Positions 142 through 26,265 of a stretch of 34,818 nucleotides of DNA are shown here, piece after piece. The notes under the pieces are model-generated. The model was not told the DNA's origin and searched no databases. It saw nothing but the letters and a program-made list of their open reading frames with translations. The first letter of the stretch is position 1. Each line of letters starts with the position of its first letter. The DNA is from Verrucomicrobiaceae bacterium. GTDB lineage: Bacteria > Verrucomicrobiota > Verrucomicrobiia > Verrucomicrobiales > Verrucomicrobiaceae. The position numbers were made by a program, and so were the translations under genes. The stretch lies in the NCBI GenBank assembly GCA_027490195.1, contig JAIXYN010000038.1, forward strand, positions 1 to 34,818. The letters run 5' to 3'.

Positions 142-403
142 TGCTTCAAATCTGGGGTGTTGCGGGGCTTCCGGAACGGGCTGCTGCGAAGCCGCGAAGC
201 ACCTCAACTACGTACTAAGAATAGCCGTGAGTTAGTCGGGAGGTTGGAGCGCTTGGGTTGGCTTTTGGTTCTTCACGCGCTATGGAGGACTTTTAGCTAG
301 GGTCGCGCACAGCGCATCCCTACCATCCGGAGAGGGCTGTGGCCTTGGCGTTCTATCCCTTTTCAAAGGGCTCTGGATTCTCTTGGGGGGTGAGAAATGC
401 GGG
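142..403. other. Intergenic, no gene; includes relic of the 211-bp repeat
   Basis: I see no credible gene here. The part 301-385 matches fragments of the 211-bp family: the arm sequence with GCGCACAGCG and TCCCTACCA, and the spacer containing CCTTGGCGTT and CCTTTTCAAA. It appears to be a decayed unit in + orientation, lying downstream of the minus-strand EEP gene. Confidence 0.5.
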
Positions 404-13205: not shown

Positions 13206-13278
13206 CCGTTTGGCTGCCATACTGCCGAGCATCACCAACTTTGAGAAGAAACCCGTCTTGATGTTGGTGAGTGGGTGT

Positions 13279-13950
13279 GGTGTTCCCGTTTTATCGGTGA
13301 GGACAAGGACGGCGGACCTTTTTGAGTGCCTGAGATGGGATAGACCCGAAATCACGGACCCGCGCAGCGGTTCCCTACCTGCGCTGGGGTACGCGGTGCT
13401 CTGGGGGTAGGGATGCGCGGTGAGGGGCCGTGGAATCCTTCGTCCCGGCGCGGGTTGCGGACTCGGCGTTCGCCCCCTTTTCAAAGGCCTCTGACTTCTG
13501 GTGTTGAAGGTCTCAAGGACGGCGGACCTTTTTGAGCGCCTGCGATGGGATAGACCCGAAATGACGGACCCGCACAGCGGTTCCCTACCAGCGCTGCGGC
13601 ACGCGATGCTCTGGGTGGTGGGGATGCGCTGTGAGGGGCCGTGGAATCCTTCGTTCCAGCGTGGGTTGCGGACTCGGCGTTATCCCCCCTTTTCAAAGGC
13701 CTCTGACTTCTGGTGTTGAAGACCTCAAGGACGGCGGACCTTTTTGAGCGCCTGCGATGGGATAGACCCGAAATTACGGACCCGCACAGCGGTTCCCTAC
13801 CAGCGCTGGGGTGCGCTCTGCTCTGGGTGGTAGGGATGTGCTGTGAGGGGCCGTGGAATCCTTCGTTCCAGCGCTGGGGCACGCGCTGCTATGGGTGGTG
13901 GGGATGCGCTGTGAGGGGCCGTGGAATCCTTCGTCCCAGCGTGGGATGCG
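13279..13950 (+). repeat. 211-bp tandem repeat family A, array 1 (three units)
   Basis: Units begin with CAAGGACGGCGGACC at 13304, 13514 and 13726 (spacings 210 and 212 bp). A 5' leader with TCCCGT and TATCGGT at 13279-13303 is shared with the single unit at 26080. Each unit has a GCACAGCGGTTCCC arm and a partly complementary GGTAGGGATGCGCTG arm. The third unit contains an internal duplication of about 68 bp (13801-13868 and 13870-13937). The unit length is not constantly a multiple of three, so frames shift between units and the open frames read through here are not proteins. The array lies between the kinase and SWIB genes. Confidence 0.92.
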
Positions 13951-14055
13951 GTATAACTATCACCGTTACACTAAAGATTGTATTTATTGAGCCGGATCAA
14001 TCCGATGCATCACCGAGGTTGACCATGGGGCAAAATTCGGCCAGCATTTACCCCC
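13951..14055 (+). promoter_or_regulatory. Putative upstream region of the SWIB gene
   Basis: This AT-richer segment between the repeat array and the SWIB ATG presumably carries its promoter. I cannot assign a convincing -35/-10 pair: TTGACC at about 14021 would leave almost no leader. No Shine-Dalgarno is seen before the ATG. Confidence 0.3.
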
Positions 14056-14337
14056 ATGTCTGACTCAACCAATCCGAAACCCGCCCGCAAACTGAACCCA
14101 GCCCTGAGCAAGCCCGTCCAACCGGATGAGATTCTCGCCAAGGTGATCGGCTCCACTCCTCTCTCCCGCGGAGAAATGACCAAGAAGCTGTGGGAATACA
14201 TCAAGAAGAACGGTCTGCAGGACCAGGCCAAGAAGACCAACATCAATGCTGATGAGGCGCTGAAGGCTGTCTTCGGTGGCAAGAGCCAGGTGACCATGTT
14301 TGAGATGACGAAGCTCGTCTCGGCTCACGTCAAGTAA
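14056..14337 (+). CDS. SWIB/MDM2 domain protein
   Basis: This 93-residue protein consists of a Lys/Pro-rich N-terminal tail (about 1-20) and one SWIB domain (about 20-93). The domain begins with PDEILAKVIGSTPLSRGEMT, continues with KKLWEYIKKNGLQDQAKKTN and ends KAVFGGKSQVTMFEMTKLV. SWIB domains occur in eukaryotic chromatin remodellers; in bacteria free-standing copies are typical of Chlamydiae and Verrucomicrobia, where they are proposed to act in chromosome organisation, in chlamydiae together with topoisomerase I. It is monocistronic: a strong terminator follows within about 60 nt. Together with that terminator this suggests an abundantly expressed DNA-associated protein, which is inference. 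Confidence 0.93.
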   Translation: MSDSTNPKPARKLNPALSKPVQPDEILAKVIGSTPLSRGEMTKKLWEYIKKNGLQDQAKKTNINADEALKAVFGGKSQVTMFEMTKLVSAHVK

Positions 14338-14396
14338 GCCCGGCATTCGCTGGCTCCCTGACTTTCGGGAAAACCGCAGCGAAATGCACCCTTTTC

Positions 14397-14431
14397 AAAA
14401 ACCCGCAGACCTTGGTGGTCTGCGGGTTTTT
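14397..14431 (+). terminator. Strong intrinsic terminator after the SWIB gene
   Basis: The arms at 14397-14411 and 14417-14431 form a perfect 15-bp stem with loop TTGGT. The core is ACCCGCAGACC/GGTCTGCGGGT, flanked by A5 and T5, so it could work in both directions. Confidence 0.93.
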
Positions 14432-14494
14432 CATGTTAGGAAGATGGGTGCCTGTTTGATGATGACAGGCCAGCGTCCGATGGCTTGCGCATGA

Positions 14495-16977
<2,483 letters not shown>

Positions 16978-17112
16978 ATTGAGGGGGGCTGAGATCGGCT
17001 CCGGTTTCGGAGTGCTTCGTGGGTGACCCAATCTCTTGAATTGCGTCAAAGAGGACGATTGACCAACCCAAGGGGCATCCTGTAGCTTGGTGTTGAATTC
17101 CACTCAACAATC

Positions 17113-17859
17113 ATGCGCTCCTCCAATCCCACCCTCAACGATCAAGTCTTTGAACGTTCACGCTCCGGCAATCAGGCTGATGGCGTGATGACGCTGAACG
17201 GAACCGTTCTCAAAACGGCCATTCTCACGCTGCTGCTGGTCACATCGGCCAGCTGGAGCTGGAAGATTGCCATGGGGGGCAGTGCTCCGACATGGTTCGG
17301 CTCAGTGCTTACTTTTGGCTGGATTGTTCCTCTGGGCCTTGCGCTGATCATTTCCTTCAAGCCCACGACGGCACCTGCGCTCGCGCCGGTTTATGCGCTG
17401 TGCAATGGCGTCATCGTCGGCATCATCTCAGCCATGTATGAGAGGGCCTTCGGCGGCATCGTCCTCACGGCGGTCATGCTGACCTGCGGCATTTTGTTTG
17501 CCCTGCTCGCCGCTTACTCGACAGGGATGATCAAGCCGACGGAGAATTTCAAGCTGGGCATCTTTGCCGCTACGGGTGGGATCGCCATCTTTTACCTCGC
17601 CACGATGGTGCTTGGCATGTTTGGCATCCAGATTCCTGGCCTGTTTGGCAACGGCTGGGTGGGCATCGCCTTCTCCGGCTTTGTGGTCGTTCTCGCCGCG
17701 CTGAACCTTGTGCTGGATTTCGACTTCATCGAAAATGGGTGTGCGGCCGGTGCGCCGAAGCACATGGAATGGTATGCCGCCTTCGGTTTGCTCGTCACCC
17801 TGGTCTGGCTGTATCTCGAAATTTTGCGCCTGCTGAGCAAACTGCGCAGCCGCGATTGA
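17113..17859 (+). CDS. Bax inhibitor-1/YccA-like membrane protein
   Basis: This 248-residue protein has a hydrophilic N-terminus (about 1-28) and seven hydrophobic helices. The start MRSSNPTLNDQVFE and the stretch LALIISFKPTTAPALAPVYA fit the bacterial Bax inhibitor-1/YccA family. GVIVGIISAMYE, the conserved central helix, and FDFIENGCAAGAPKHMEWYAAFGL near the C-terminus, with the di-aspartate-type acidic residues of the last helix, also fit. Family members act as pH-sensitive Ca2+ leak channels or FtsH modulators; the role here is not known. It lies 135 nt after pyrG and 39 nt before a secreted hypothetical, with which it may be cotranscribed. Confidence 0.9.
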   Translation: MRSSNPTLNDQVFERSRSGNQADGVMTLNGTVLKTAILTLLLVTSASWSWKIAMGGSAPTWFGSVLTFGWIVPLGLALIISFKPTTAPALAPVYALCNGVIVGIISAMYERAFGGIVLTAVMLTCGILFALLAAYSTGMIKPTENFKLGIFAATGGIAIFYLATMVLGMFGIQIPGLFGNGWVGIAFSGFVVVLAALNLVLDFDFIENGCAAGAPKHMEWYAAFGLLVTLVWLYLEILRLLSKLRSRD

Positions 17860-17898
17860 ACAAGCGTTGGTCTCGCGAACTCCAACTTGGTGCAATCC

Positions 17899-18597
17899 AT
17901 GAAAACCTCCCTCTTCTTTAGCCTCCTGCTGGCCAGCGCTACGCTGAGCCACGCCAATCCCGAAATCGCCACGGTCATTGATCAGGAATACGGGGCCGCG
18001 ACTGCCGAGGGAATCCTGCTGCTGCAATCCGCCCCCAGCGCCGCAGAACCGCCGCAATGGTCCGTGATTGCACGTGATCCTTTCCGCCCTGGAGATCTCG
18101 TGCGGGCTTCGCTCACCTTGGTCAATGGTGCCTGGGCCCCCAAGGCCACGGGTGCCGGCCCCAAGCTGCTGGGCCGTGTGCCGCCGCAGCCGATCGCCTT
18201 CAACCGCATCAGGCTTCGCTCGTCGGACGTGCTTAAAATCGCGCAGCGGAATGCGATGCTGGCCAAGACCAACTTCGTCACCGCTGCGTACCAACTAGCT
18301 GCCGATGCCGCCACAGGAGCACCGCAATGGGGGCTCGCGCTCAATGGGACGGATGGCAATGAAGTCGGTTTCATTGTGATCTCCGCCGAAACCGGCGCGG
18401 TCATTCACCAGCAGTGGAACAACGGTCTGGCCAGCTATGAGTCCGGCGCACCTGTTTCTTCTCCTGAGCCCGGTTCCAAAGGTGAACGTGCCGCTGACAA
18501 TGTGAGACGTGCTGCCCGCGACGCCTGGGAATGGACTGGGGACACGGGGCTTGAGGTCGGGCACTTTTTCAAGCGGTTGTTTAAGAGTGGGAATTGA
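17899..18597 (+). CDS. Secreted hypothetical protein, 232 aa
   Basis: ATG 17899 gives a clear signal peptide MKTSLFFSLLLASATLSHA, so the protein is exported. The mature part is mixed alpha/beta, with PFRPGDLVRASL in the middle and LKIAQRNAMLAKTNFVTAAYQLAADAATGAPQW before a strand pair GLALNGTDGNEVGFIVISAETGAVI. The last pattern (protein strand, then DAETGxVL-like turn) resembles a PepSY domain, but the match is not firm. The C-terminal 40 residues are charged and helical, ending WEWTGDTGLEVGHFFKRLF. No family is named with confidence. The gene follows the Bax inhibitor-like gene by 39 nt. Confidence 0.72.
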   Translation: MKTSLFFSLLLASATLSHANPEIATVIDQEYGAATAEGILLLQSAPSAAEPPQWSVIARDPFRPGDLVRASLTLVNGAWAPKATGAGPKLLGRVPPQPIAFNRIRLRSSDVLKIAQRNAMLAKTNFVTAAYQLAADAATGAPQWGLALNGTDGNEVGFIVISAETGAVIHQQWNNGLASYESGAPVSSPEPGSKGERAADNVRRAARDAWEWTGDTGLEVGHFFKRLFKSGN

Positions 18598-18608
18598 TGC
18601 TGAAGGTG

Positions 18609-18670
18609 ATGCGGGCACTGCTGCCGCAGTCCAATGTTATCATGAGTCGTGAGGGTAAGAGTGCCCGCAT
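18609..18670. repeat. 11-bp inverted repeat (family C relative)
   Basis: ATGCGGGCACT (18609-18619) and AGTGCCCGCAT (18660-18670) are perfect inverted copies with a 40-nt loop, followed by TGCTTC. This recalls the GCGGGCA/TGCCCGC hairpin before gltX. It could serve as a terminator-like or RNA-stabilising structure after the secreted hypothetical gene. Confidence 0.6.
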
Positions 18671-18721
18671 TGCTTCATGAACCCTTGAGCCTTGCGCAAT
18701 GGGCTGACAAGATGAGCGCCC

Positions 18722-18932
18722 ATGGTGGAGGTGGATGCGTTGCCTCAATGCGGCAAACTCGCGGCGGGGCTCATTGCTGACGCTGCTGGCATGCTTGAAG
18801 TGTGGCGGAATGCTGGGTTTGCTTCCCAGATTGTGTGCCGGAACCCAGGGGAGCGCTCGCTAAAGCTCGGCACCCCTGGGCTGTATGACGGAAGGCCGTT
18901 GGCCTTCAAGACATGGTTGTCAGTCTATCGAG
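18722..18932 (+). repeat. Repeat family B, copy 2
   Basis: About 205 bp closely matching 22826-23031, including 47 identical bases (18793-18839 and 22880-22926). It contains the perfect stem CCCAGGGG (18844-18851)/CCCCTGGG (18873-18880) and the hairpin GAAGGCC-GTT-GGCCTTC (18891-18907). It lies between convergent genes. Confidence 0.88.
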
Positions 18933-18936
18933 CAAG

Positions 18937-20337
18937 TTACAGTTCCACCGCCTGATTCATCACGGCGATCTTCACGCTGCTTTCTCCGTGTTTCGCATCC
19001 AGCGCGGCTTTGAGGGCGTTGGAGCGGTCGGGTTCGCCGTGGACGAGGAAGACGTTTTTCTTTGGACCCTGTACGCGGTCAAACCAGCCGAGCAGTTCGT
19101 CGTGGTCGGCGTGACCGGAGAAGGAGTCGAGGATTTCAATGCCGGCGTGGACTTCGAATTCGTCGCCGAGGATGTTCACGTGCTGGTGGCCTTCGCGCAG
19201 CTTCCAGCCGAGGGTGTTTTGTGCGCAGTAGCCGACGAAGAGGATGATGTTGTGATCGTTGCCGACGTTGTTGCGAAGATGGTGCAGAATGCGACCTGAC
19301 TCGGCCATGCCGGAGGCGGAGATGATGATCGCCGCGCCTTTGAGCTTGTTGAGGTTTTTCGACTCATTGACATCACGCACGAGCTGCAGCCCCTCAAAGC
19401 CGAAAGGATCATTGCGCATGAAGGCCGCCTCATGAACCGTGGGTTTGAGTTCATCGACATGGAGGCGGAAGATCTCGGTGGCCTTCACTGCCAGCGGGCT
19501 GTCCACAAAGGTGGGGATGAGAGGGAAGCAGCCCTCGTGGCGCAGTTGATCCAGCGTGAAGAGGAGCTGCTGCGTGCGCTCGACCGCGAAGGCGGGGATG
19601 ATGAGCTTGCCCTTTTGCTGCAGGATGCGGCGGATGATCCGGCAGATGTGCTCATTGGAATCCGTGGCCAGCTCGTGGTGCCGTCCGCCATAGGTGCTCT
19701 CCATGATGATGTGGTCCACCTTCTCGCAGGCTTCGGGATCTGCCAGCAGGTCATTGTTGGGACGGCCGATATCCCCGGAGAACAGCAGGCGAGATTTTTT
19801 GCTGGTCTGGCGGTCGTCGATGTCGAGGATGACCTGAGCAGAACCGAGGACGTGGCCGGCATCGATGAAGGTCATGGTGACACCGTCGGCGATGATCATG
19901 GGGCGGTGATAGCCCACGGAGACGAACTGGCGCATGCACTTCTCCGCATCAATCAGGGTGTAGCTGGCTTCCAGCAGCGGGAGGTTGTCCTCCTTGCGGT
20001 GACGGTTGAGCCAGTTGATGTCGCTCTCATGAATGTGGGCCGCGTCCGGCAGCATGATGCTGCACAGATCCCGCGTGGCAGGCGTGGCAAAGATGTTGCC
20101 GCTGAAGCCGCGTTTGCACAGGTGCGGCAGATTGCCGCTGTGGTCGATGTGTGCATGCGAGAGCACCACGACATCGATTTCCTTGGGATCAAAAGGGAAG
20201 TCGCGATTGCGCTCAAAGGCCTCGCTGCGTCTGCCTTGATAGAGACCGCAGTCCAGGAGGATACGCTGACCGTTGACCGAGATGAGATGCTTGGAGCCGG
20301 TGGTGGTGCCAGCGGCACCGCAGAAGGTCAGTTTCAT
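18937..20337 (-). CDS. Metallo-beta-lactamase/beta-CASP ribonuclease
   Basis: This 466-residue protein is of the CPSF73/Ysh1-like bacterial group. The metallo-beta-lactamase part has the first strand MKLTFCGAAGTTTGSKH and the zinc motif HAHIDHSG (His61, His63, Asp65, His66). Later it has DAGHVLGSAQVIL and FSGDIGRPNNDLLADPE. The beta-CASP insert carries IIPAFAVERTQQLLF and ISASGMAESGRILHHL, and the C-terminal part has FSGHADHDELLGWF and FLVHGEPDRSNAL. These are the expected motifs of RNA endo/5'-exonucleases acting in RNA processing or decay. The length is typical. It is monocistronic on the minus strand, with repeat B directly beyond its stop. Confidence 0.93.
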   Translation of the reverse strand: MKLTFCGAAGTTTGSKHLISVNGQRILLDCGLYQGRRSEAFERNRDFPFDPKEIDVVVLSHAHIDHSGNLPHLCKRGFSGNIFATPATRDLCSIMLPDAAHIHESDINWLNRHRKEDNLPLLEASYTLIDAEKCMRQFVSVGYHRPMIIADGVTMTFIDAGHVLGSAQVILDIDDRQTSKKSRLLFSGDIGRPNNDLLADPEACEKVDHIIMESTYGGRHHELATDSNEHICRIIRRILQQKGKLIIPAFAVERTQQLLFTLDQLRHEGCFPLIPTFVDSPLAVKATEIFRLHVDELKPTVHEAAFMRNDPFGFEGLQLVRDVNESKNLNKLKGAAIIISASGMAESGRILHHLRNNVGNDHNIILFVGYCAQNTLGWKLREGHQHVNILGDEFEVHAGIEILDSFSGHADHDELLGWFDRVQGPKKNVFLVHGEPDRSNALKAALDAKHGESSVKIAVMNQAVEL

Positions 20338-20782
20338 GGTTGGTTGGAATTTTTTTGTGGTGGCCGAAGCGATGTTGCATCAACGAAAGTCACCGACGTG
20401 AGGACAACACAGCAACGTTACTCTGACCTGCCATTGCAAAGCCATCTTTTTATTGTCCGGATTCGGCCTCTATGAATGAAGGGACGGGCGGCTGAGGCGG
20501 TGGAAGACTTTGCACATTGCGAGAGCGGTGCTTCCGAGGGTAGGTTTGCGGAACCGGTTGCGGCGCAACCGGTCAACTTTCCTGCATCCTATACGCCGCC
20601 ACTTTCGTGGGGGCAAAAGAGTGAGGCAGGCGAAGAGAATGCCATCAGCAGTTGAATAGGAGTCTGGATGCAGCCTCAAGCGTATTGGTAGAGAGGCAGA
20701 GCTGTTTACCTCCGATGGTGGCATTGCATCACAGCTGTCAATCATCTCGGCGACGACCCGCAGATGCGGCCTTTCCACATGC
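20338..20782. other. Intergenic region without recognised gene
   Basis: No gene is supported. A perfect hairpin ACCGGTTGC-GGC-GCAACCGGT lies at 20553-20573 without a T-run. Open frames here are short and match nothing I recognise. The promoter of the minus-strand ribonuclease should lie in the left part, but no clear boxes are visible. Confidence 0.5.
20553..20573. repeat. Perfect 9-bp palindromic hairpin
   Basis: The arms ACCGGTTGC and GCAACCGGT are separated by GGC. Without an adjacent T-run a terminator role is unlikely. It could be a protein-binding palindrome. Confidence 0.5.
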
Positions 20783-21560
20783 CAAGGACGGCGGACCTTT
20801 TTGAGCGCCTGCGATGGGACAGACCCGAAATTGCGGACCCGCACAGCGGTTCCCTACCAGCGCTGGGGTGCGCGCTGCTCTGGATGGTAGGGATGCGCTG
20901 TGCGCGTCCCTAGAATTCTTCGGCCCAGCGTGGGCTGTTGCCTTGGCGTTCGCCCCCTTTTTAAAGGCCTCCGACTTCTGGTGTTGAAGGTCTTAAGGAC
21001 GGCGGACCTTTTTGAGCGCCTGTGATGGGATAGACCCGAAATTACGGACCCGCACAGCGGTTCTCTACCAGCGCTGGGGTACGCGCTGCTCCGGGTGGTA
21101 GGGATGCGCTGTGCGCGTCCGTAGAATCCTTCGTCCCAGCGTGGGTTGCGGACTCGGCGTTCGCCCCCTTTTTAAAGGCCTCAGACTTCTGGTGTCGAAG
21201 GTCTTAAGGACGGCGGACCTTTTTGAGCGCCTGTGATGGGATAGACCCGTAATTACGGACCCGCACAGCGGTTCCCTACCAGCGCTGGGGTGCTGCGTTA
21301 CTTTGGATGGTAGGGATGCGCTGTGCGCGTCCCTAGAATTCTTCGGCCCAGCGTGGGCTGTTGCCTTGGCGTTCGCCCCCTTTTTAAAGGCCTCCGACTT
21401 CTGGTGTTGAAGACCTCAAGGACGGCGGACCTTTCTGAGTGCCTGAGGTGGGATAGACCCGAAATTACGGACCCGCACAGCGGTTCCCTACCAGCGCTGG
21501 GGTGCGCGGTGCTCTGGGGGGTAGGGATGCGCTGTGCGCAGCCGTGGGGGCCTTCGGCCC
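20783..21560 (+). repeat. 211-bp tandem repeat family A, array 2 (four units)
   Basis: Units start at 20783, about 20994, about 21205 and 21417 (spacing 211-212 bp). In the first unit the arms 20835-20859 and 20885-20909 are inverted copies matching at 22 of 25 positions around a 25-nt loop. The array lies between the divergent ribonuclease and NHL genes, so their promoters must lie outside or inside it. Open frames across it change phase with each unit and are not proteins. Confidence 0.93.
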
Positions 21561-21747
21561 TGCCACATCGCACTCCGCCTTTTCGCCATCTGGATCACAG
21601 CGGATGGTGACATAGGCAACGGCTTCATGGCGGTACGTGGATTCTGGCAGGCGTGTGGATTTGCGCTGCATTAACGGAGGAATGGTGCCGTATTCATTTC
21701 CTGCTTGGCTTTCATCAGCTAGTCATTCATCGTTCCCCTTTCCAATC

Positions 21748-22821
21748 ATGCGCTTTCTTCTCACTCTTGCTTTGCTCGTTCAAACTGCCACTGCTGCCGA
21801 GTGGACCATCTCCACCTTTGCTGGAAACGGCACCCAGGGGGGCAGCGGTGATGGTGGTCCTGCCAATGCGGCGCAGATCGACAATCCCTTCGGTGTCACA
21901 CGTGGGCCGGATGGGGCGATCTGGTTCTGTGAATACACGGGGCAGCGCATCCGCCGCGTGGCCCCCGACGGCACGATCAGCACCATCGCGGGCACGGGAA
22001 AGAAAGGCTACAGCGGTGATGGCGGGCATGCTTTGGAGGCGACCTTCAATCTGCCGCATGAGCTGCGTTTTGATGCGCAGGGGGATCTGTATGTCGTCGA
22101 TATGACGAACCACGTCGTGCGCAAGATCGACATGAAAACGAAGATGATCACCACCTTCGCAGGCACCGGCGTGGCGGGTTACAGCGGCGATGGCGGCCTG
22201 GCGGTAAAGGCCCAGTTCAAACAACCCCACAGCATTCAGTTCGGCCCCGATGGCAGCCTCTATGTGTGTGACATCGGCAACAATGTCATTCGCAAGATCG
22301 ACATGAAGACTGGGGTGATCAGCACCTTTGCTGGAACCGGGAAGCCGGGCGCGACGCCGGATGGTGCGCCTATCGCTGGCACGCCGCTCAAAGGCCCCCG
22401 CTCACTGGATTTCGACAAGGCGGGAAATCTCTGGCTGGTCACGCGCGAGGGGAATCAGGTCATTAAATTTGATCTCAAGGCTGGCACTATTCATCACATG
22501 GCAGGCACGGGGGCCAAAGGCTTCAGCGGCAACGGTGGTCCGGCCAAACTGGCGACGCTCAGCGGGCCGAAGGGGGTGGCGATCGATGCTGCAGGCAATG
22601 CCTGGCTGGCCGACACGGAAAGCCACAGTGTGCGCATGATCGATGCGAAAACCGGCAACCTCGAACTCATCGCCGGCACCGGTGAAAAAGGCGACGGTCC
22701 TGACGGCAATCCGCTGCAATGCAAGATGGCGCGTCTGCATGGCATCTTTTGCGATGCAGATGGCACGGTCTATATCGGCGACAGCGAGGCGCACCGCGTG
22801 CGACTGCTGAAGCAGAGGTAA
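21748..22821 (+). CDS. Secreted NHL-repeat protein
   Basis: The start at ATG 21748 gives a signal peptide MRFLLTLALLVQTATAAEW, so the 357-residue protein is exported. The mature part is a beta-propeller of about six NHL repeats, each with a variation of STFAGTGxxGYSGDGGxA, then a strand such as LYVVDMTNHVVRKID, LYVCDIGNNVIRKID, AWLADTESHSVRMID and VYIGDSEAHRVRLLK. No enzymatic domain accompanies it, so a binding or scaffold role is most likely. A related protein lies at 24976-26028 on the far side of the glutaminase gene. Upstream in-frame starts (from 21637) would precede the signal peptide and are unlikely. Confidence 0.9.
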   Translation: MRFLLTLALLVQTATAAEWTISTFAGNGTQGGSGDGGPANAAQIDNPFGVTRGPDGAIWFCEYTGQRIRRVAPDGTISTIAGTGKKGYSGDGGHALEATFNLPHELRFDAQGDLYVVDMTNHVVRKIDMKTKMITTFAGTGVAGYSGDGGLAVKAQFKQPHSIQFGPDGSLYVCDIGNNVIRKIDMKTGVISTFAGTGKPGATPDGAPIAGTPLKGPRSLDFDKAGNLWLVTREGNQVIKFDLKAGTIHHMAGTGAKGFSGNGGPAKLATLSGPKGVAIDAAGNAWLADTESHSVRMIDAKTGNLELIAGTGEKGDGPDGNPLQCKMARLHGIFCDADGTVYIGDSEAHRVRLLKQR

Positions 22822-22825
22822 ATTC

Positions 22826-23031
22826 GGTGCCTGAATGCGGCAAATTTGCTGCGGGGCTCATTGCAGACGCTGCTGGCAGGCTTGAAGTGTGGCGGAATGC
22901 TGGGTTTGCTTCCCAGATTGTGTGCCAAGACCCAGGGGAGCACTCGCTAAGGCTCGGCACCGCCTGGGCTGTATGACGGAAGGCCGTTGGCCTTCAAGAG
23001 ACGGATGTAAGTCTATCGCGCAAGTCTCAAG
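22826..23031 (+). repeat. Repeat family B, copy 3
   Basis: It starts directly after the NHL stop codon and ends just before the stop of the convergent glutaminase gene. Stem arms CCCAGGGG (22931-22938) and CGCCTGGG (22961-22968) pair with one mismatch; the hairpin GAAGGCC-GTT-GGCCTTC is at 22979-22995. Like copy 2 it separates convergent genes. Confidence 0.88.
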
Positions 23032-26079: not shown

Positions 26080-26265
26080 GGTGCTCCCGTCTATCGGTCA
26101 CGACAAGGACGGCGGACCTTTTTGAGCGCCTGCGTCGTCGCAGACCCGAAATCACGGACCCGCACGGCGGTTCCCTACCAGCGCTGGGGCACGCGCTGCT
26201 TTGGGTGGGGTAGGGATGCGCTGTGCGCGTCCCTAGAATCCTTCGTCCCAGTGCGGGCTGCTGAG
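26080..26265 (+). repeat. 211-bp repeat family A, single unit
   Basis: It has the same 5' leader as array 1 (TCCCGT, TATCGGT; 26080-26103), then a unit starting at 26104 with the CAAGGACGGCGGACC head and both palindrome arms. It lies between convergent genes (NHL and EEP). The position of the shared leader suggests that insertions begin with it and later units arise by tandem duplication. Confidence 0.9.

Follow-up and report, generated by a model that had tools for sequence, protein, structure and literature searches.

The window, a 34,818-nucleotide stretch of contig JAIXYN010000038.1 (positions 1 to 34,818, forward strand) in the Verrucomicrobiaceae bacterium assembly GCA_027490195.1, contains a family of 211-bp palindromic repeat units arranged as two arrays, a single unit and a relic (Table 1). 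This set had been described in a reading of the DNA made without database searches (the sequence-only reading), and tandem detection together with BLAST confirmed it, with the relic at 297-381 rather than 301-385. Mechanical tandem-repeat detection returned 13304-13878 (period 212) and 20784-21539 (period 211); units are spaced 210-212 bp apart, with another copy 4687 bp further along. The units occupy every type of gene boundary, as had been claimed: array 1 separates a histidine kinase gene and a SWIB gene in tandem, array 2 a minus-strand beta-CASP hydrolase gene and a plus-strand NHL gene (divergent), and the single unit NHL and Exo_endo_phos genes (convergent).

A search of the organism's own genome (G000; 6.98 Mb, 101 contigs; G numbers denote genomes and L numbers fetched stretches) with the unit gave at least 76 matches, some of which are partial units or reverse-strand readings of the palindrome. 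The best match outside the window (E 1.3e-68) is beyond chance. As 40 of 87 candidate matches were scored and several arrays reach contig ends (such as those of L031, L042, L046 and L063), the copy numbers given are minimum values. We extracted 63 units in 40 arrays from the window and 34 fetched stretches; the single direction reported earlier holds for the window units but not genome-wide, where 36 units are on the plus and 27 on the minus strand. The 62 alignable units form 22 singles, 12 pairs, 4 triples and 1 quadruple.

Each unit consists of a head, arm 1 (CGGACCCGCACAGCGGTTCCCTACC), a linker mostly 27-30 nt long, arm 2 (GGTAGGGATGCGCTGTGCGCGTCC) and a tail. In the aligned copies, reading outward from the linker, each arm starts with GGTAG and continues as a palindrome; a self-pairing palindrome of 20-50 nt tagged by GTAG or a variant of it is the form of the GTAG repetitive extragenic palindromes (REPs). 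In the first unit of array 2 the arms are inverted copies of each other, although we counted 21 matches over 25 positions where 22 had been given. We analysed pairing in 83 distinct arm pairs out of 119 found. The self-pair 5-15 of arm 1 was formed in 62 of 66 arms of the 25-nt form, with both sides changed in nine, and the self-pair 9-19 of arm 2 in 77 of 83, while cross pairs between the arms at those positions were formed in only 11/66 and 13/66. Mismatches of arm against arm fall exactly where either arm pairs internally. These data favour two inverted REPs, each pairing with itself, over one long stem, and the long hairpin of the sequence-only reading thus arises from two inverted copies of one REP. 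We rejected a selected hairpin between arm 1 and arm 2, as the discriminating pairs fit self-pairing; the overall paired share does not separate the two models.

Several features of the arms temper this. The shares of paired cells are alike (0.85 and 0.84 for arm 1, 0.92 for arm 2, 0.86 for pairing between the arms), 61 of 66 copies have a mismatch at arm 1 pair 4-16, and both-side changes are few, with none in arm 2, so that the covariation among close copies is weak. The search patterns took near-consensus arms only, which favours conserved pairs. The 4-16 mismatch resembles the conserved stem mismatches of E. coli REPs described in PMC8266576. We consider the case for REPs strong.

On contig C58 of the same genome, an open reading frame (ORF) encoding 160 aa (or 155 aa if started at an internal ATG; L046:419-901, minus strand) stands where the linker would be. 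The order is arm 1, ORF, arm 2, with further units on either side, and the window arms are nearly the same in sequence as these flanking palindromes. The predicted protein matched the NCBIfam family REP_Tyr_transpos (NF047646; E 1.3e-18, 67.3 bits) and, by sequence, the E. coli REP-associated tyrosine transposase (RAYT) 4er8 (E 1e-6). For a structure model with a mean pLDDT of 89.6, 4er8 was again the best fold match (E 6e-9, TM score 0.68). In an alignment of 72 proteins H69 is invariant, and H71 and Y127 each occur in 90% or more; Y127 aligns, counted by hand, with 4er8 residue 115, the tyrosine mutated in PMC8266576. As modelled, the protein has a Y1/HUH fold with an HxH motif and a single putative catalytic tyrosine, and the gene between the inverted arm copies is a predicted cognate RAYT. 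Mobilisation in trans had been proposed from the repeats alone, and this gene would be a fitting transposase. Given that mismatches between the arms lie at self-pairing positions and that near-identical arms lie beside a RAYT gene, the arrays are therefore alternating inverted REP dimers, similar to REP doublets forming hairpins (REPINs) and bacterial interspersed mosaic elements (BIMEs).

A RAYT of 78% identity is assigned to Prosthecobacter sp. RAYT matches at E 1e-8 occur in 17 of 48 genomes of the genus, six of them with at least 64% identity. At all eight RAYT loci inspected by eye REP-like palindromes adjoin the gene. They flank it to left and right in G000, G036, G012, G006, G038 and G014, whereas in G022 and G017 the nearest ones lie on its 3′ side only. 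The RAYT-side stems vary strongly among species, and a GTAG- or GAGG-tagged palindrome is retained. G000 has 16 Y1_Tnp matches (L088-L103), and loci L089, L094, L095, L097 and L098 have GTAG- or GGAG-tagged palindromes of their own nearby; several RAYT/REP systems appear to coexist in this one genome.

In the terms of PMC3733652, the linker dimer is of the TT type (GTAG inside, variable spacer) and the dimer formed by a tail and the next head is of the HH type (GTAG outside, conserved spacer), and the array alternates between them. The HH form is doubled in L203 and solitary in L200 (6348-6535), where it constitutes an inverted two-REP dispersed unit, as expected of a REPIN. Of the 10 orthologous loci compared, four, including its own, have the L200 copy, which occupies the same site in G000, G009 and G022 (L288-L290). 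It was unaligned in the six others: the flanks are 11 bp apart in G023 and separated by 104-386 bp of other sequence in G047, G015, G036, G030 and G026.

The sequence-only reading had proposed a non-autonomous, structured, dispersed element. Presence and absence between relatives bear this out, but the 211-bp unit is often nested in longer elements, here called shells, with terminal inverted repeats (TIRs). We scored three shell end types (A, B and D) in 126 stretches; these include strand duplicates and six loci chosen for their shell ends (L113, L117, L122, L257, L260, L261), so the shares are not unbiased. Stretches with at least one recognised end numbered 29 of 46 for G000 and 45 of 80 elsewhere, compared with 0 of 378 shuffled left flanks (left ends only). 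Both ends were found in 17 A elements (10 in G000, 6 in G036, 1 in G035; L117 of G000 is without REPs), nine D elements (4 in G022, 4 in G009, 1 in G035) and six B elements. Shells A, B and D are short, non-coding, dispersed and bounded by TIRs, the characteristics of miniature inverted-repeat transposable elements (MITEs). REP-bearing elements with one unit measure 343-360 bp (A) and 293-352 bp (D). TA flanks both ends on the outside in 5/17 A elements, and in 2/9 D elements a C precedes and a G follows TA...TA. A consensus alignment revealed a common core extending from CAAGGACGGCG to about CCTTTCCA (~185 bp) with differing ends. Three unrelated end types thus surround the same ~185-bp core and, because 29 of 46 stretches in G000 have at least one recognised shell end, this core likely travels as MITE cargo.

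The A ends (TACTGCCGCGCATCACAAACTTTCA) adjoin broken IS630-like ORF pieces in G013 and G014, with one end seen. No facing A ends 0.8-3 kb apart, as in an autonomous element, occur among the 40 pattern matches listed for G000. The D ends (TAGGCGGTGTCTTTGCAAATC) lie 884 bp apart in G008 and enclose a transposase gene of the IS5 family (NF033580, E 1.2e-36, above the cut-off). Since matching ends adjoin such genes in relatives, we infer that an IS630-family transposase would move shell A and an IS5-family transposase shell D. The B ends resemble a multi-copy element with 36 genome matches, which interrupts A elements at contig ends (L052, L132); this element with B-like ends (L132:1600-1739, L052, L056, L058) often terminates contigs. 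By eye, the left and right flanks of L175 (G009) and L209 (G015) are alike mutually and unlike A, B and D, perhaps constituting a fourth shell.

Could RAYT alone account for the spread? In a plain REPIN or BIME population, RAYT would disperse the dimers, and REPs would have fallen by chance into old MITE shells and then hitchhiked. The RAYT gene adjoining the arms agrees with this, as does the REPIN-like form, which stands by itself in L200 and L203 and at one orthologous site occurs in some genomes but not in others. We nevertheless regard it as unlikely, given identical core limits in three shells, two-ended copies that are mostly whole shells of constant length, and the lack of a close RAYT in 8 of 11 unit-bearing genomes.

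We then compared shells and cargo, assigning each linker to the nearest of three linker types (a, b, d). Among the 37 linkers of A-ended stretches in G000, type b, the one typical of B, accounted for 26, type a for 10 and type d for one; 4 of 6 linkers in D-ended stretches of G022 were also of type b. Seven two-ended A elements are without the REP core (L249, L250, L251, L252, L254, L255, L259). Three of these (L249, L250, L259) match the palindrome GGGAGCGCCGGTTTTTAACCGGCTCTGG at 27 of 28 positions; among 1000 shuffled versions of L249 the highest count was 19. The same palindrome occurs seven times around another G000 RAYT (L094:1435-2016; 86.2 bits, above the cut-off), and one shell type therefore carries the REPs of two RAYT systems. 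Core segments may be passed among shells via recombination or RAYT action.

That finding bears on a further alternative, in which these are standard MITEs containing a minisatellite, with the palindromes as passive filler and a coincidental RAYT association. The shells do have TIRs, local duplication is observed (below), and BrickBuilt, a MITE with internal tandem repeats (PMC4596501), sets a precedent. The explanation is improbable, however, with a RAYT gene exactly between the arms, related RAYTs of other species adjoining REP-like palindromes of their own, and a second RAYT's REPs borne by one shell type.

We sought empty sites in relatives. Of the 11 fetched loci orthologous to the array 1 site, 10 have no array; the eleventh (L269) includes the right flank only. 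The sites in relatives span 28-304 bp, compared with about 735-872 bp in the window, and the flanks at 13218 and 13954 are separated by 28 bp in G009. G015, G009 and G030 (3 of 11 loci) are without array 2, their flanks lying 20-88 bp apart; the other eight loci are uninformative because the right-hand gene is outside the stretch or ~1 kb off with other sequence (L283). G009, G015 and G030 bear the unit at other places. It is very improbable that the repeat is a structured noncoding RNA or a regulatory element selected at gene boundaries. The strong hairpins and intergenic position of the window copies would suit such an element, but REPs account for the structure, orthologous sites of close relatives are empty, and an Rfam scan of the window gave no match at gathering score, on which basis a known RNA family was rejected.

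Among the 40 units that belong to multi-unit arrays, 14 are closest to a unit of the same array, where 0.6 would be expected and 1000 label shuffles gave 5 at most; mean identity is 0.88 within arrays and 0.82 between them. Local duplication is thus, as judged from unit similarity, part of array growth, and arrays may expand largely in this way. The difference in identity is also what local duplication with no mobility would give, and the sequence-only reading had allowed for that outcome should few or no other copies exist. As an explanation of the whole it is scarcely credible: orthologous sites are empty, and the copies are dispersed over the genome and 11 of 48 genomes of the genus. We rejected local duplication alone because the dispersed copies contradict it.

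Within the genus, one of the 11 unit-bearing genomes, G019, is included by a single weak match. Outside the genus, the full unit was not found among the matches listed for 68 genomes of the family; four further genomes, G056, G059, G060 and G061, match, among those listed, at query positions 98-139 only, corresponding to arm 2 and its edges. A close RAYT is present in three unit-bearing genomes (G000, G022, G036). Units in genomes without one fit spread by DDE transposases; draft assemblies or later loss of RAYT fit too. The exact pattern of the unit head is also present in a Verrucomicrobia metagenome-assembled genome. It has no match in viral contigs, and viral carriage of the unit was rejected on that ground.

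Taken together, the REP dimer core is likely MITE cargo moved by DDE transposases, with RAYT predicted to act on the REP hairpins; we assign this a probability of roughly 0.7. Carriage by MITE transposases would be the simplest account of one core in three shells and of the empty sites. RAYT would nick REPs as single strands, by analogy with the E. coli enzyme. A number of observations weigh against this interpretation. The C58 RAYT misses the curated NF047646 cut-off of 80 bits, and its match to Pfam Y1_Tnp has an E value of 0.16. No recognised shell end was present in 52 of 126 stretches, the A-end transposase consists of pieces with weak matches (NF033545, E 0.003; HTH_33, 27.4 bits with a cut-off of 25), and no transposase with B ends was found. 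Eight of the 11 unit-bearing genomes are without a RAYT of at least 64% identity, and 26 of 40 array units are best matched in another array. For the genus as a whole we tentatively propose, at somewhat less than even odds, that MITEs of DDE transposases serve as interchangeable vehicles for REPs, which outlive and out-travel their own RAYT as selfish palindromes switching vehicles.

Much of this has precedent. GTAG REP families and REPtrons are described by Nunvar 2010 (PMC2817692) and Di Nocera 2013 (PMC3733652), who also report GTAG repeats in the verrucomicrobium O. terrae. The present system shares with theirs the GTAG tag and palindrome, RAYT between inverted REPs, dimers with GTAG inside or outside and dimer clusters in tandem, but differs in that TIR elements of DDE-type insertion sequences (ISs) can also enclose the dimer, with one core in three shells. 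The REPINs of Pseudomonas fluorescens SBW25 (Bertels and Rainey 2011, PMC3116915) likewise have two inverted REPs per unit and form ordered tandem clusters that include flanks and adjoin RAYT genes. In contrast to SBW25 REPINs, the spacer here is long (~135 nt) and most copies examined are shelled or unassigned; excision has been demonstrated in SBW25. A single-stranded REP with a GTAG guide, as predicted here, is also the form in the TnpA-REP systems of E. coli, S. maltophilia and Marinomonas (PMC8266576). BrickBuilt of Porphyromonas gingivalis (PMC4596501) is also an intergenic MITE with a leader, an internal tandem repeat and a tail, but its repeat is 23 bp and the abstract mentions neither REP nor RAYT. 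TIRtrons (PMC3733652) combine RAYT-like genes, palindromes and TIRs; their TIRs enclose the RAYT-like gene, whereas here TIRs of DDE elements enclose gene-less REP dimers. Earlier papers thus already cover REPs, REPINs, REPtrons, tandem clusters of REPs and verrucomicrobial GTAG repeats (PMC2817692, PMC3733652, PMC3116915, PMC8266576), as well as a MITE with internal tandem repeats (PMC4596501). In the open-access literature of PMC we found no report of REP dimers as cargo of DDE-type MITEs or common to several such families. As far as searched, one REP core in three MITE shells is an undescribed variant.

REPs are among the commonest bacterial repeats, and their mode of spread is still debated. 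If they do ride DDE-type MITEs, they have a second route of spread, which would explain REP-rich genomes without a cognate RAYT; what looks like one 211-bp palindromic repeat can be several nested mobile layers.

Table 1 Repeat, REP and shell features of the window.
Feature	Position	Strand	Remarks
Array 1	13305-13948	+	Units from 13305, 13515, 13727; partial copy 13868-13948 (BLAST unit starts)
Array 2	20784-21563	+	Units from 20784, 20995, 21206, 21418 (BLAST unit starts)
Single unit	26105-26263	+	By eye, inner shell A parts on both sides; right end damaged
Relic	297-381		Linker end and arm 2 at 297-332 (-); tail at 334-381 (+)
Left terminal inverted repeat of shell A (TACTGCCGAGCATCACCAACTTTGA)	13220-13244	+	Pattern matches with 2-3 mismatches
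Array 1 insert, approximate; shell A with damaged right end	13219-13953	+	Absent from orthologous sites
Left part of shell B (CATCAGCAGTTGAATAGGAGTCTGGATGCAGCC...)	20643-20783	+	By eye; below end-score threshold
REP arm 1, first unit of array 2	20834-20858	-	GTAG reads on minus strand
Linker between REPs, GTAG inside (TT dimer)	20859-20885		RAYT gene replaces linker on contig C58
REP arm 2 (GGTAGGGATGCGCTGTGCGCGTCCCTAG), first unit of array 2	20886-20913	+	
REPIN-like dimer, GTAG outside: arm 2, tail/head spacer, arm 1 of next unit	20886-21069	+	

In the relic, the arm-2 palindrome is inverted with respect to the tail, as though the hairpin had flipped. Two further repeats lie in the window. 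Identical 41-bp copies at 1-41 and 101-141 contain a further palindrome with a GTAG tag (GTAGTCCCGGCTTTAGCCGG on the minus strand), which may represent another REP family; none of the 16 Y1_Tnp loci in the genome has this palindrome nearby. Another dispersed repeat, ~210 bp long and with a palindrome of its own (GAAGGCCGTTGGCCTTC), occupies 18728-18937 and 22815-23025 at 90-92% identity, and pieces resembling it lie inside or adjoin the A-ended elements L252 and L259.

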